This document shows, one piece after another, positions 24,488 to 41,659 of a stretch of DNA of 64,000 bases. Location: contig NZ_JBBOPI010000001.1 in the NCBI RefSeq assembly GCF_038003525.1, forward strand, positions 3,626,001-3,690,000, written 5' to 3'. A program made the translations under genes and the position numbers. This DNA comes from Solibacillus sp. FSL H8-0538 (GTDB lineage: Bacteria > Bacillota > Bacilli > Bacillales_A > Planococcaceae). Position 1 is the first letter of the stretch; each line of letters opens with the position of its first letter. The notes under the pieces were generated by a model. It saw only the letters and a list, made by a program, of their open reading frames with translations. It did not search any database and had not been told where the DNA came from.

Positions 24488-27400
24488 TTATTCAGCTGAA
24501 GTTACTTCTTCTCCTATAGGACCATCTTGATCCATACGGATTTGACGATAACGTTGCATACCAGTACCTGCAGGAACAAGTTTACCGATAATTACGTTTT
24601 CCTTCAGACCAAGAAGTTCATCACGCTTACCTTTAATCGCAGCATCTGTTAACACACGCGTTGTTTCTTGGAATGATGCAGCCGATAAGAATGATTCTGT
24701 TTCAAGAGAAGCTTTTGTAATACCAAGAATTACCGGACGGCAAGTTGCTGGGTTTTTACCATTTAATACAGCATCAGCATTCGCTTCTGAGAATTGGTGG
24801 ATATCTAGTAATGAACCTGGTAATAATTCAGTATCACCTGATTCAATTACACGTACTTTACGAAGCATTTGGCGAACCATTACCTCGATATGTTTATCCC
24901 CGATTTCTACCCCTTGCATACGGTATACTTTTTGTACTTCCTTCAACAGATACTCTTGAACTGTTGATACATCTTTTACTTTTAATAATTGTTTTGGATC
25001 GATAGAACCTTCTGTAAGAGTTTGCCCAGGAATAATCTCGTCACCTAACTGCACTTTTAAACGTGAGTTATAAGGCGCTTGATATTTACGTGTTTCCACG
25101 TTACCTTGAACAGTAATTTCTTTAAGACCTTCACGAATCTCTTCGATTTCTGACACTTGACCTGAGATTTCAGAAATCACGGATTGACCTTTCGGATTAC
25201 GTGCTTCGAAAATCTCTTGGATACGTGGAAGACCTTGAGTGATATCGTTTCCGGCAACCCCACCTGTATGGAAAGTACGCATTGTTAACTGTGTACCTGG
25301 CTCACCGATAGATTGAGCAGCGATAATACCAACCGCTTCCCCAACTTCTACCTCTTCACCCGTTGCTAAGTTCATACCGTAACATTTTTTACATACGCCA
25401 TGTTTTGTATTACATGTGAATGCTGAACGAATTGTAATTTCTTCAATGCCCGCTTCTTCAATTACACGCGCTACATCTTGAGTAATTAGTCCGTCACGTT
25501 CTAAAATGACTTCGCCCGTTTGTGGATGACGAATTGTTTTCTTCCCATAACGACCTACAATACGCTCATCTAATCCTTCAATTAGTTCGTTACCTTCCAT
25601 TAAGGCACCGATTAGTAAACCACGGTCAGTTCCACAGTCATCTTCGCGGACGATAACATCTTGTGCTACATCTACTAAACGACGAGTTAAGTAACCTGAA
25701 TCGGCAGTTTTCAGTGCTGTATCAGCAAGACCTTTACGCGCACCGTGAGTAGAGATAAAGTACTCTAATACTGTTAAACCTTCACGGAATGAAGATTTGA
25801 TTGGTAACTCGATAATACGACCAGCCGGGTTGGCCATCAGACCACGCATACCAGCAAGCTGTGTAAAGTTCGATGCGTTACCACGCGCTCCTGAATCAGA
25901 CATCATGAAGATCGGGTTCGTTTTTTGTAGAGAGTTCATTAACTTGCCTTGGATCGTATCTTTAGCTGCAGACCAACTAGAAATAACTCGGTCATAACGC
26001 TCTTCTTCCGTGATTAAACCACGACGGAATTGCATCATTACTTTATCTACCTTTTGTTGCGCTTCTTCTAAGATGACACCTTTATCTGGTAATACCACAA
26101 TATCCGATACACCTACTGTGATACCAGCGCGCGTAGAGTATTTGAAACCTAAGTCTTTCATACGGTCAAGCATTTTAGATGTCTCAGTAATATGGAATCG
26201 TTTAAATACTTCAGCAATGACATTTCCTAAGAATTTCTTACGGAATGGATCCACTGGTGGAACAGAAGCAAAGTATTTACTTAAAACTGCACGACGTTGA
26301 GCTTCGATTTGTTCTGCTTCAGAAAGTTCACTGTACCCTTCAGTCGCTTCAATATCTTTTTGTAGTTCTTCATCGATTGTTAAATTAACGAAATAATTCT
26401 CAGGCGTTTTTTGCTCTAAGTTCACATCAGTTGGTTCATTGATGTAAGGGAATGATTTAGGAAGAATTTCGTTGAAAATTACCTTACCAACTGTTGTTAA
26501 TAGGAACATATTGTTTTGTTCTTCAGTAAACGTCGGGTTATTTAAAGAACTTGCTTTAATTGCAATACGTGAATGTAAATGTACATGACCGTTTTGATAT
26601 GCGATTAATACTTCATCATGACCATAGAAAATTGAACCTTCACCTACAGCACTTTCACGCTCAAGCGTTAAGTAATAGTTACCTAATACCATATCTTGAG
26701 ATGGAGTTACTACTGGTTTACCATCTTTAGGGTTCAGGATGTTTTGAGCAGCTAACATAAGTAAACGTGCCTCTGCTTGCGCTTCTGCTGATAAAGGAAC
26801 GTGAACCGCCATTTGGTCACCATCGAAGTCAGCGTTGTAAGCTGTACATACTAGTGGGTGAAGACGAATTGCACGGCCTTCTACTAATGTAGGCTCGAAT
26901 GCTTGAATACCAAGACGGTGAAGAGTCGGTGCACGGTTAAGTAATACCGGATGCTCACGAATTACATCTTCTAAAACGTCCCATACTTCATTGTGCATAC
27001 GCTCAATTTTACGTTTTGCACTCTTAATGTTATGAGCAAGGCCTCGTTCTACTAATTCTTTCATTACGAAAGGCTTGAATAGTTCGATTGCCATTTCTTT
27101 TGGAAGACCACATTGGTACATTTTTAAGTTTGGACCTACTACGATAACCGAACGACCAGAGTAGTCAACACGTTTACCAAGTAAGTTTTGACGGAAACGA
27201 CCTTGTTTACCTTTCAGCATATGTGAAAGTGATTTTAACGGACGGTTACCAGGACCAGTTACCGGACGACCACGACGACCGTTATCGATTAATGCATCGA
27301 CAGCTTCTTGTAGCATACGTTTTTCGTTTTGTACGATAATGCTCGGAGCACCAAGGTCTAATAAACGTTTTAAGCGGTTGTTACGGTTAATTACACGACG

Positions 27401-28174
27401 GTAAAGATCATTTAAGTCAGAAGTTGCAAAACGACCACCATCTAATTGCACCATTGGACGAAGCTCTGGCGGAATAACAGGAAGTACGTCTAGAATCATC
27501 CATTCAGGTTTGTTACCAGAGTGACGGAATGATTCTACTACTTCAAGGCGTTTGATCGCACGAGTACGACGTTGACCTTGCGCAGTTTTTAACTCTTCTT
27601 TTAATGTAACTGTTTCGTCTTCAAGATCTAGTTTTTCAAGTAGTCTTTTGATTGCTTCTGCGCCCATTGCTGCTTCGAAACCGGTACCAAATTTTTCACG
27701 GTATGCACGGTATTCTTTTTCAGAAAGAAGATCTTTGAAGCCTAAAGCTGTTGCCCCCGGCTCGATTACTACATAAGAAGCAAAGTAAATTACTTCTTCT
27801 AACGATCGTGGAGACATATCTAAGATAAGTCCCATACGGCTCGGAATTCCCTTGAAGTACCAAATGTGAGAAACAGGTGCTGCTAACTCGATGTGTCCCA
27901 TGCGTTCACGACGTACTTTTGCACGTGTAACTTCCACTCCACAACGATCACAAACTACACCTTTATAGCGTACACGTTTGTATTTACCACAGTGACATTC
28001 CCAGTCTTTAGTTGGTCCAAAAATACGTTCACAGAAAAGACCATCTTTTTCTGGTTTTAATGTACGGTAGTTGATTGTTTCAGGTTTTTTAACCTCACCA
28101 TAAGACCAAGAACGAATCTTGTCTGGAGAAGCTAAACCGATTTTCATATATTCAAATTCATTAACATCTATCAA
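24488..28174 (-). CDS. rpoC: RNA polymerase beta-prime subunit (TTG start)
   Basis: 1228 residues. The zinc ribbon [20 protein letters not shown] lies near 60-80, the catalytic Mg motif [12 protein letters not shown] in the middle, and the bridge helix/trigger loop region includes [16 protein letters not shown]. The insert-free layout is that of Firmicutes. The first codon is TTG with AAAGGGAGG about 8 bases upstream. A 177-bp gap containing a terminator-like hairpin separates it from rpoB. The C-terminus ends GEEVTSAE. Confidence 0.98.
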
Positions 28175-28307
28175 GGAGCCTACCTCCCTTTAGTATAAGT
28201 CCTCTAACGACTTTTCCGTAGCTCGACAATCAATGGCAAAAAAAGCTTAAACTAGACCAGATTAAACTTTTTTTGCATGAAATTCATGTTTTAATTTTTT
28301 ATGCAAG

Positions 28308-28340
28308 AAAATCGGGCAGGGCATATACCTGCCCGATTTT
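28308..28340 (-). terminator. Strong terminator-like hairpin between rpoB and rpoC
   Basis: A perfect 13-bp stem, AAAATCGGGCAGG with CCTGCCCGATTTT, around a 7-nt loop, 12 bp after the rpoB stop. On the minus strand it ends TTTTCTT. This is as strong as the tuf terminator. Between it and rpoC lie a GCAAAAAAAG(C)TTAA inverted repeat (28242-28276) and the short palindrome CATGAA-A-TTCATG, but no convincing promoter. Confidence 0.8.
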
Positions 28341-28351
28341 ATTTGAAATTA

Positions 28352-31300
28352 TTACTCAAATGACTCTACTGGGACTTCTTCTTTCTCAGTAGGTACGATA
28401 TTTAAAGCATCAGCTGGTTGAAGCTCTTCTTCGTCATCTAAATCACGAAGCTCTACTTCTTCATCGTTGATTGTTAGCATTTTAACATCCATACCTAAAG
28501 ATTGAAGTTCTTTAATTAATACTTTGAATGATTCTGGAACACCTGGTTCTGGAACACTTTCACCTTTAACGATGGCTTCATATGTTTTCACACGACCTAC
28601 AACGTCATCCGATTTTACAGTTAAAATCTCTTGAAGTGTGTAAGCAGCACCGTATGCTTCAAGTGCCCAAACCTCCATCTCACCGAAACGTTGCCCACCA
28701 AACTGAGCTTTACCACCCAATGGCTGTTGCGTAACTAATGAGTAAGGTCCAGTTGAACGTGCGTGAAGTTTATCATCAACCATGTGGGCAAGTTTGATCA
28801 TGTACATGATCCCTACTGATACACGGTTGTCGAATGGCTCACCTGAACGTCCATCATAAAGAATTGTTTTACCGTCACGGTTCATACCAGCTTCTTCCAT
28901 CGTTTCCCATACATCCGCTTCATTGGCACCATCGAATACTGGTGTTGCCATATGAATACCTAAGTAACGAGAAGCCATACCTAAGTGTAGCTCTAGCACT
29001 TGTCCGATGTTCATACGAGAAGGTACCCCAAGTGGGTTAAGCATGATATCTACTGGCGTGCCGTCTGGCATGAATGGCATATCTTCTTCCGGTAAGATAC
29101 GAGAGATAACCCCTTTGTTACCATGTCGTCCGGCCATTTTGTCCCCAACGCGGATTTTACGCTTTTGAACAATATAAGCACGTACTAATTGGTTAACGCC
29201 TGGTGGTAATTCGTCGCCATCTTCACGGTTGAATACTTTAACGTCAAGGATAATACCGCCAGCTCCGTGTGGTACACGAAGTGAAGTATCACGGACTTCA
29301 CGTGCTTTTTCACCGAAAATTGCATGTAATAAACGTTCTTCAGCAGTTAATTCAGTAACCCCTTTAGGAGTAACTTTACCTACTAGAATATCACCATCAC
29401 GAACTTCCGCACCGATACGGATAATACCGCGATCGTCTAGGTTACGAAGTGCATCCTCACCTACGTTTGGAATGTCACGCGTGATTTCTTCTGGTCCAAG
29501 CTTTGTATCACGAGACTCTGATTCATATTCTTCAATATGAACAGATGTATATACGTCATCTTTCACAAGACGCTCACTCATGATTACAGCATCCTCATAG
29601 TTAAAGCCATCCCATGTCATGAAAGCAACAAGTACGTTACGCCCAAGTGCAAGTTCTCCGCGTTCCATAGATGGACCGTCAGCTAAAATGTCACGAGGCT
29701 TCACGCGATCGCCAACTTTAACGATTGGGCGTTGGTTATATGAAGTACCTTGGTTTGAACGAATGAATTTTTGTAATTTATAGTTTGTTAAATCGCCTTT
29801 AACTTCTTTACCGTCAACGATTTCGATACGACGTACGCGGATTGAACGAGCTTCTACATGCTCAACAATACCATCATATTTCGCAACAACCGCTGCACCT
29901 GAGTCACGAGCGTCTACATGTTCCATACCAGTACCAACGAATGGTGCTTCTGGGTTTAATAAAGGAACCGCTTGACGTTGCATGTTTGCTCCCATTAGCG
30001 CACGGTTTGAGTCATCGTTTTCTAAGAACGGAATACATGCAGTGGCAGCAGATACTACTTGTTTAGGAGATACGTCCATGTAGTCAATACGGTCTTTGTT
30101 GAATACAGTGTTATCACCACGGAAACGTCCAACGACTTCTTCGTTAGCGAATGCACCCTCTTCAGTTAAAATCGAGTTGGCTTGAGCTACTACGTAGTTA
30201 TCTTCTTCATCAGCAGTTAAATAATCGATACGATCAGTCACTAAACCAGTTTCCGGATCCACGCGACGGTAAGGTGTTTCGATAAAGCCGAATTTATTTA
30301 CTTTTGCAAACGATGATAACGAGTTGATAAGACCAATGTTTGGTCCCTCAGGCGTTTCAATCGGACACATACGACCATAGTGAGAATAGTGAACGTCACG
30401 TACTTCCATACCAGCACGCTCACGTGTTAAACCACCAGGCCCTAATGCAGATAGACGACGCTTATGCGTTAATTCTGCTAGTGGGTTTGTTTGGTCCATG
30501 AATTGAGATAATTGAGAGCTACCAAAGAACTCTTTAATTGACGCAATTACAGGACGAATGTTAATTAATTGTTGTGGCACGATTGCAGCTGTGTCATTAA
30601 TCGACATACGCTCACGTACTACACGCTCCATACGAGATAATCCGATACGGAATTGGTTTTGCAGAAGCTCACCAACAGAACGTAAACGACGATTACCTAA
30701 ATGGTCAATATCATCCGTGTTCCCAACACCATATAATAAGTTAAAGAAATATGATACAGAAGCAATTACGTCAGCTGGCGTAATATTCTTCACTTCTTCA
30801 TCAATATAAGCATTGGAAATAACGTTAATTTCTTTTTGCGCTTCATCATTAGGTGCATAGATTTTAATTGATTGGATTGTAACATCGTCTTCTAATACGC
30901 CACCTACTTGAGATAGTGTACGGAAGCCTACACCTGCCTCTAAATAAGGAATTAACTTATCTAGTGTACGACGGTCTAATAACGTTCCTTGTTCTACTAA
31001 AATTTCACCTGTTTCAGAATCAACAATTGTTTCTGCAATCGTTTGGTTGAACAAACGATTTTTGATGTGAAGCTTTTTGTTCATTTTGTAACGACCAACA
31101 TTCGCTAAATCATAGCGTTTCGCGTCAAAGAAACGAGAATACAATAAGTTTTTCGCACTTTCAACTGTAGGTGGTTCACCCGGACGTAGACGCTCATAGA
31201 TTTCAAGAAGCGCTTTTTCAGTGCTTTCTGTGTTGTCCTTTTCAAGCGTGTTACGTAAGAACTCGTTGTCACCAACGATGTCTAAAATCTCTTGATCTGA

Positions 31301-31906
31301 TCCGAAACCTAATGCACGTAACAGAACAGTTACAGGAAGTTTACGCGTACGATCAATACGTACGTATACTACATCCTTTGCATCTATTTCATATTCAAGC
31401 CAAGCACCACGGTTAGGAATTACTGTAGCGCCAAAGCCTTTTTTACCGTTTTTGTCAGTTTTATCATGGAAGTAAACACTAGGAGAACGAACTAACTGTG
31501 AAACGATAACGCGCTCAGCACCGTTAATAATAAACGTACCCGTTTCCGTCATTAATGGGAAATCACCCATAAAGACGTCTTGCTCTTTTACTTCATCTGT
31601 TTCTTTGTTGTACAAACGTACTTTTACACGCAGTGGTGCAGCATAAGTTACGTCACGTTCTTTACACTCATCTACATCATACTTAGGATCTCCTAATGTA
31701 TAGTCGACGAATTCAAGTGAAAGATTACCTGTAAAATCTTCGATTGGAGAAATGTCGTGGAACATCTCGCGCAATCCTTCTTCAAGGAACCACTCATAAG
31801 ATGCTGTTTGGATCTCGATTAAATTCGGAAGTTCCAGCACCTCACTAATACGCGCAAAACTTCTACGCTGACGGTGTTGTCCGTACTGAACTAGTTGACC
31901 TGTCAA
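28352..31906 (-). CDS. rpoB: RNA polymerase beta subunit (TTG start)
   Basis: 1184 residues. I place the start at TTG (31904-31906, [19 protein letters not shown]), matching the TTG-started Bacillus protein; the GTG nine bases upstream overlaps the GAGGGG ribosome binding site. The rifampicin region ([20 protein letters not shown] and [17 protein letters not shown]) is wild type. The conserved [15 protein letters not shown] and the C-terminal [20 protein letters not shown] are intact. The last ~35 residues form an acidic tail usual in Firmicutes. Confidence 0.98.
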
Positions 31907-32111
31907 CTCATTCACCCCTCAATAAAGCGATAATAGGTCTTTGCAAAATCACCCAAATAGTGTATGATTTCGAAAGACAAAAAGAAAACGAGTCTTTTGT
32001 AAGATCTCATTTTCGGTTAAACTAAACTTATTCTTGGTGAGTATACCCAGAAAAACTTGTTAATAATACAAAAGGGCACACGACCTCAAAATAATAATTT
32101 TGCATTTTATT

Positions 32112-32859: not shown

Positions 32860-32866
32860 AAAATGA

Positions 32867-32898
32867 AGAAAAGCTCGTCAAAAGAGACGAGCTTTTCT
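32867..32898 (-). terminator. Intrinsic terminator of rplJ-rplL
   Basis: A perfect 13-bp stem, AGAAAAGCTCGTC with GACGAGCTTTTCT, loop of 6, ending in TTTTCTTCATTTT on the minus strand. It lies about 20 bp after the rplL stop. Confidence 0.9.
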
Positions 32899-32920
32899 TA
32901 TTTACAGATGTAAGTAATAA

Positions 32921-41353: not shown

Positions 41354-41590
41354 AAAAAAAACGTCCCCGCCACCTCATTAAAGGTGACAGAGACGCTTGT
41401 TTGCGCGGTTCCACTCTGGTTGAGGGCATACACCCTCCTCTCAAAAGTCCAATAACGTGGACGAACCGACTTAGCCTACTTCATTTCAACTAAGTACTCA
41501 AAGGTGCATTTCTGTTTTGCCTGGGCTCAGACCACTTTCAGCCGGTGATGGTCCTCTCTAAAGAGCATGCGCCACATACTTCTCCTTCTC
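41354..41590 (-). ncRNA. T-box leader, cysteine specific (UGC specifier)
   Basis: On the minus strand the T-box sequence TGGAACCGCG lies at 41404-41413, followed by a terminator stem (41362-41395) and a run of T (41354-41361). Further upstream, GAAATGCACC holds the specifier TGC (Cys) at 41506-41508, then TTTGAGTA-like conserved bases. Uncharged tRNA-Cys would stabilise the antiterminator and allow cysES transcription, as for the cysES T-box in B. subtilis. Confidence 0.92.
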
Positions 41591-41659
41591 AACGCGTTTT
41601 AATTATGTGCAATGTAAATTCATTTTACATAAATTTTCTGAAAAAACAAAGTTTTTTCT

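Follow-up and report, generated by a model that had tools for sequence, protein, structure and literature searches.

A conserved hairpin between rpoB and rpoC in Solibacillus sp. FSL H8-0538 and its family: a possible mRNA 3′-end element, tentatively read as a partial terminator in one lineage

The gap between rpoB and rpoC in Solibacillus sp. FSL H8-0538 carries a stable hairpin, named hereafter H1, which recurs at the same junction across the family with its pairing retained while its letters change. On the strength of these comparisons we take H1 as a real hairpin under selection. The reading that we tentatively favour, at a confidence a little short of even, is that H1 is an older hairpin concerned with 3′-end formation or processing of the mRNA behind rpoB, and that in the lineage of this strain it may have been tuned into a partial terminator, with rpoC reached by read-through. 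The cell needs β and β′ in a one-to-one ratio, and rpoB and rpoC are commonly regarded as a single transcriptional unit. The minus strand of the window (the whole stretch of 64,000 nt that was analysed) has the gene order rplK-rplA-rplJ-rplL-methyltransferase-rpoB-rpoC-L7Ae-like-rpsL-rpsG-fusA-tuf, for which Pfam was run on ten of the products, rplK and fusA being named by position and size alone. The features of the junction, with the basis of each in brackets, are as follows.

28352..31915, minus strand: rpoB, RNA polymerase β (Pfam)
28308..28340, minus strand: H1, stem-loop with a perfect 13-bp stem, beginning 11 nt past the rpoB stop codon (inverted repeat and fold)
28303..28312, minus strand: U-rich tract ATTTTCTTGC behind H1's G-C core; the A-rich 5′ foot pairs with the first five bases of the tract (sequence)
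28276..28288, minus strand: short 13-nt palindrome CATGAATTTCATG (sequence)
28236..28276, minus strand: H2, long A/U-rich imperfect palindrome (sequence and fold)
28176..28224, minus strand: rpoC-proximal conserved block GAGCUAC..AGUC..GACU..AGGGAGGUAGGCUC (family comparison)
28173..28190, minus strand: predicted rpoC Shine-Dalgarno (SD) hairpin AAGGGAG-GUAGG-CUCCUU, extending over the first two positions of the TTG start (fold)
24488..28174, minus strand: rpoC, RNA polymerase β′, TTG start at 28174-28172 (Pfam)

The perfect 13-bp hairpin that the initial annotation had placed at 28308-28340 was located at exactly those positions, as the inverted repeat AAAATCGGGCAGG-TATATGC-CCTGCCCGATTTT with a 7-nt loop and G-C pairs at 7 of the 13 stem positions. 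The two further palindromes that had been claimed between it and rpoC were found as well, at 28236-28276 and 28276-28288. H1 had been described as lying 12 bp after rpoB; the position just 3′ of rpoB is right, but the distance measures 11 nt. The predicted fold of H1 has a free energy of -21.1 kcal/mol, against -6.57 +/- 2.05 kcal/mol for shuffled sequences (z -7.1; 0/200 shuffles as good), and the fold of the whole 177-nt gap (28175-28351, minus strand) beats 200 of 200 shuffles (z -3.9). The stem is G-C-rich, has more than the five pairs expected of an intrinsic terminator and closes on a short loop, and its foot is made up of the terminal A-U pairs AAAAU/AUUUU, the kind of foot that characterizes NusG-dependent terminators. 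The exact stem pattern CGGGCAGG..CCTGCCCG occurs at a single place in the genome, on which ground a dispersed palindromic repeat of the REP or MITE type was rejected, and a search of the genome with the gap DNA gave nothing elsewhere except H1's own reverse. A known Rfam cis-regulatory RNA was also rejected, as no match reached the gathering score in 28100-28420; a relaxed scan returned 19 sub-threshold matches, among them trpB and the L20 leader, which are spread over the two strands, most of them across the hairpin, and all score below cut-off.

The search for rpoC, with its first 125 residues as query, matched 198 of 200 family genomes including the window's own, which is the sole member of its genus in the comparison set. 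From the other 197 matching genomes 120 junctions were chosen (77 were left out), and 119 of the 121 junctions, window included, could be parsed, the rpoC start pattern having failed in L205 and L206 (genus g3). The nearest named matches to the tail of rpoB were from Ureibacillus (87%), Lysinibacillus (84%), and Solibacillus and Planococcus (80% each), from which the lineage was read as Planococcaceae-like. An order-level search brought no addition, since all of its 150 genomes were from the same family. Outside the family, 60 junctions of the class were examined out of 73 matches (13 being left out), and 42 of these 60 gaps are shorter than 70 nt, 18 being longer. The earlier description of the gap as unusually long is thus correct with respect to the class but not within the family, where 118 of 119 gaps measure 94-315 nt and the sole exception 56 nt.

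A single hairpin of -12 kcal/mol or better, located ahead of the gap's final 40 nt, was present in 116 of the 119 family genomes, representing 19 genera, the exceptions being L122, L148 (the genome with the 56-nt gap) and L153. The hairpin begins at the stop codon itself at the earliest and 170 nt beyond it at the latest, in most cases no more than 60 nt away. Under a stricter definition, requiring one unbroken core at or below -8 kcal/mol, 109/119 still pass, and nine of the ten failures come from genera g10 and g17, in which the stems are bulged. When gaps were compared with dinucleotide shuffles, at most 5 shuffles in 100 did as well in 113/119 genomes, five of the six exceptions belonging to the GC-rich genus g4. 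The hairpin in the rpoB-rpoC gap is, as far as these sequences go, not a quirk of the one genome. In two genomes of genus g14, L190 and L187, the gaps reach 315 and 260 nt and hold extra large palindromes beside H1, as if inserted.

The stem letters vary between genera with the pairing retained, and covariation was measured on 27 aligned H1 sequences from seven genera. These were drawn from the 47 distinct hairpins of the eight genera with rpoC VNEF (106 distinct hairpins being present across the family), leaving aside near-duplicates and stems of unrelated sequence (e.g. those of L169, L170, L133 and L138). Paired cells amounted to 89.5% compared with 85.0% after shuffling (0/500 shuffles as high), and cells changed on both sides of the stem numbered 21 compared with 5.9 +/- 2.8 (0/500). 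Sliding the partner strand by one to three columns made the pairing of H1 fall to 31-53%. Two of the five covariation measures were weak, namely the number of double-change pairs (3 vs 1.8; 63/500) and of pair types (13 vs 10.9; 39/500). A chance or neutral palindrome seems extremely improbable in view of the z-score of the window's hairpin, the counts of family hairpins and shuffle passes given above, and the compensatory changes, and nothing was found in its favour.

The initial annotation had called H1 a strong intrinsic terminator with a stem ending in TTTTCTT. Those letters are indeed present, the TTTT being the paired foot of the stem, followed by CTTGCATAA. If the count begins where the G-C core ends, the window's tract has 6 T of 8 with a run of 4; if it begins after the full 13-bp stem, it has 3 T of 8. 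A generic terminator scan did not include H1 in its minus-strand list, because it takes the A-U foot into the stem, after which too few T remain; this absence slightly lowered our confidence in the reading that we favour. With the U-tract defined as at least 5 T among the 8 bases that follow the G-C core, a tract was present in all 36 genomes of the six-genus group to which the window belongs (g1, g14, g15, g16, g18 and g19) and in 11 of the 18 genomes formed by g7, g11 and one g12 genome. Among the 65 genomes with rpoC VNNF, 55 have the hairpin core and 9 the U-tract. The form broken by a single C, TTCTT, is found in 28/36 genomes of the window's group, and in 1/18 and 0/65 elsewhere. TTNTTT, a motif of NusG-dependent terminators that T-rich tracts match easily, is found in 22/36 of the group and in 1/18 and 1/65 outside it; the tract of the window itself, TTTTCTTG, departs from it. 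An rpoB tree was made from 83 of the 119 family rows, no genus contributing more than six, together with 4 outgroups. On this tree the window's six genera group together (23 rows) with an SH-aLRT value of 92, below the starred level, and the distribution of the U-tract requires at least eight changes.

These results uphold part of the terminator claim: the stem is of terminator grade and appears to be selected, and the U-tract is constant in the window's group. They do not uphold termination as the only or the oldest role of the hairpin, which is unlikely because most VNNF genomes retain the core without a U-tract, a pattern that would favour some other role. For the same reason a close rival has to be considered, namely that H1 is an RNA processing or stabilizing hairpin, an endonuclease cutting in the gap and H1 blocking 3′ exonucleases from rpoB. 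We regard this as quite possible, though we do not place it first. It would account for a hairpin that is family-wide beside a U-tract that is not, and it agrees with the absence of H1 from the minus-strand terminator list; a U-tract in every genome of the window's group, however, would not be needed for stabilization alone. The junctions outside the family bear on it in both directions. Among the 18 long gaps, 12 hold a stem at or below -7.9 kcal/mol, none of them with at least 5 T of 8 behind it, so that gap hairpins occur in other lineages too, without U-tract, while the remaining six lack such a stem. Two Weissella genomes (L063 and L074) have 148-nt rpoB-rpoC gaps with a hairpin of 25-26 bp, at about -30 kcal/mol and with 3 T of 8 behind it; as a guess, its shape could suit RNase III.

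The reading that we favour joins both roles. H1 would be a selected stem-loop forming the 3′ end of an mRNA that ends with rpoB, and its common role in the family may be to cap and protect the mRNA immediately behind rpoB, or to mark it there for processing. In this strain's lineage, H1 together with the U-tract would most likely act as a suboptimal intrinsic terminator at which a fraction of the polymerases stop after rpoB, the remainder reading through into rpoC, for which no separate promoter is visible. Such a leak may depend on NusA or NusG, because the weak A-U foot and the C-broken tract resemble the NusA/NusG-dependent terminators of B. subtilis, and the translation of rpoC may be set separately by an SD that pairs with its spacer. 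What the sequences show is H1 with its conservation and covariation, the group-wise U-tract, the lack of a promoter match and the complementarity of SD and spacer; from these we infer termination and its efficiency, Nus dependence, 3′-end protection and any effect on the β:β′ balance. An argument against a partial terminator is that it would be costly ahead of a partner needed in equal stoichiometry unless translation of rpoC compensates, whereas the prediction for the rpoC SD is that it is masked.

Of the three options raised by the initial annotation, read-through and RNA processing are those weighed above, and the third, a separate promoter for rpoC, found no support, as no match to a sigma-70-type consensus, the type covered by the scan, was detected on the minus strand of the gap. 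Consequently, rpoC should be reached by read-through, unless a promoter of another type is present. The same result makes it very unlikely that H1 is a full terminator with rpoC served by its own promoter in the gap. In favour of such a reading, H1 and the likely tuf terminator of the window have stems of similar strength (-20.6 and -21.0 kcal/mol), but the conserved 3′ block continues into the SD hairpin, so that a start site would have little space. At least as improbable, and if anything slightly more so, is a bidirectional terminator chiefly halting antisense transcription into rpoB. The plus-strand scan did list the H1 repeat as terminator-like, with a 5-bp stem and then GATTTTATTT, and a promoter-like site at 28124-28152 on that strand is directed towards H1. 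However, promoter-like sites were no more frequent in the scan than expected by chance (35 found vs 33.2 expected), and the two-way appearance of H1 stems from its A-rich/U-rich foot, which is absent in many relatives.

The leader of rpoC carries a second conserved arrangement. The last bases before the gene are, among the matches listed, nearly invariant in the family (AGGGAGGTAGGCTCC-TTG), and TTG stands at the aligned rpoC start in 119/119 family genomes. The SD can pair with its own spacer (AAGGGAG/CUCCUU; predicted -7.6 kcal/mol), which among 57 minus-strand ORFs of the window, taken as genes with starts picked by an automatic SD score, gives the most stable SD-spacer hairpin, the next being at -4.8 kcal/mol. 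Complementarity at or below -3 kcal/mol was found in 27 of the 28 families sampled from the class (one representative each, the window's family included), with a mean over the 28 of -5.67 kcal/mol compared with -3.49 +/- 0.32 for shuffled spacers (0/1000 as good); the aligned rpoC starts of these representatives are TTG in 20, GTG in 6 and ATG in 2. No covariation was detected when spacers were dealt among the 28 representatives (own -5.67 vs swapped -5.65; 460/1000 as good). Since swapping spacers between families changes nothing, the rpoC SD-spacer pair is a case of conserved complementarity, as judged from sequence, without covariation.

An upstream element is complementary to the spacer. 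It reads GAGC in 29 of 34 family junctions, facing GCUC, and among junctions with a GGCCCC spacer it reads GGGU in 16/20 and GAGC in 4/20. In this comparison, which was limited to at most two rows per genus and two spacer types, own element-spacer pairings were more stable than exchanged ones by a summed 4.7 kcal/mol, and none of 5000 label shuffles did as well, a figure that overstates the match because the agreement by group may reflect a single evolutionary event. In the window the predicted pairing is 0.97 for SD-spacer against 0.02 for the upstream element, while in genus g8 the upstream pairing is predicted to be dominant (0.91). Competition between the GAGC element and the SD for the spacer is thus a possible alternative pairing, to be taken as a lead and not as a demonstrated switch. 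We know of no protein that binds the rpoC leader. A more elaborate, and in our estimation improbable, proposal is a two-stage control of β′, in which a Nus-tuned leaky H1 would be followed by an SD locked by its spacer and freed when the upstream GAGC or GGGU takes the spacer, the levels of polymerase and Nus factors feeding back. If it were true, the second stage would use GAGC in this family and GGGU with the GGCCCC spacer, and the spacer-locked leader would be common across the class.

Strong hairpins are found elsewhere in the cluster, after rplL (-21.3 kcal/mol), rpsG (-14.3), fusA (-13.2) and tuf (-21.0), with a further one, of -18.9 kcal/mol, at the end of the L10 leader. H1 is therefore not wholly special, and what distinguishes it is its position between genes whose products are needed one to one. 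The L10 leader itself (Rfam RF00557, 33888-34032, minus strand) lies ahead of rplJ, as expected, and a T-box leader (Rfam RF00230, 112 bits) was found at 41386-41601 on the minus strand, between ORFs of 496 and 235 aa.

An element of this kind is known: the E. coli rif operon (rplKAJL-rpoBC) has an internal attenuator between rplL and rpoB. Like H1 as read above, the E. coli attenuator is a leaky terminator inside the same operon and sets the ratio of upstream to downstream product, but it separates L12 from the polymerase, which are needed in unequal amounts, whereas H1 separates β from β′. The hairpin that follows rplL in the window is a perfect 14-bp stem at 32866-32899 (minus strand), 21 nt after rplL and before the methyltransferase gene, and its position recalls the rplL-rpoB attenuator of E. 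coli.

Terminal A-U pairs and the TTNTTT motif have been described for NusG-dependent terminators of B. subtilis, and broken U-tracts with weak A-U feet as typical of its terminators that rely on NusA or NusG (PMC8060035). The weak A-U foot and the interrupted U-tract are shared with H1, as is TTNTTT within much of the window's group; unlike those terminators, H1 has a strong G-C core, its tract in the window misses TTNTTT, and its factor dependence is putative. No occurrence of rpoB or rpoC was found in the main text of that paper, so far as it was accessible. A review (PMC10931766) states autogenous control of rpoBC expression, which shares with our reading of the gap the notion that rpoBC is controlled apart from the ribosomal genes ahead of it. 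The accessible parts of five further papers (PMC3386247, PMC4818034, PMC4495994, PMC8266666 and PMC13236596) had no bearing on the rpoB-rpoC gap. No title or abstract on a terminator between rpoB and rpoC, or on a leader of rpoC, in Bacilli was found in the literature covered, which excluded most subscription journals and is therefore weak evidence of novelty.

The conserved hairpin and the U-tract fixed in one group suggest that rpoB and rpoC may not be simply co-expressed. If H1 is a leaky stop, the cell may have to balance the two subunits across a partial roadblock, and the predicted masking of the rpoC SD would add a second point of control that can be tested on its own. Comparing relatives that have the U-tract with those that lack it would be a natural way to ask how operons hold the ratio of their subunits.
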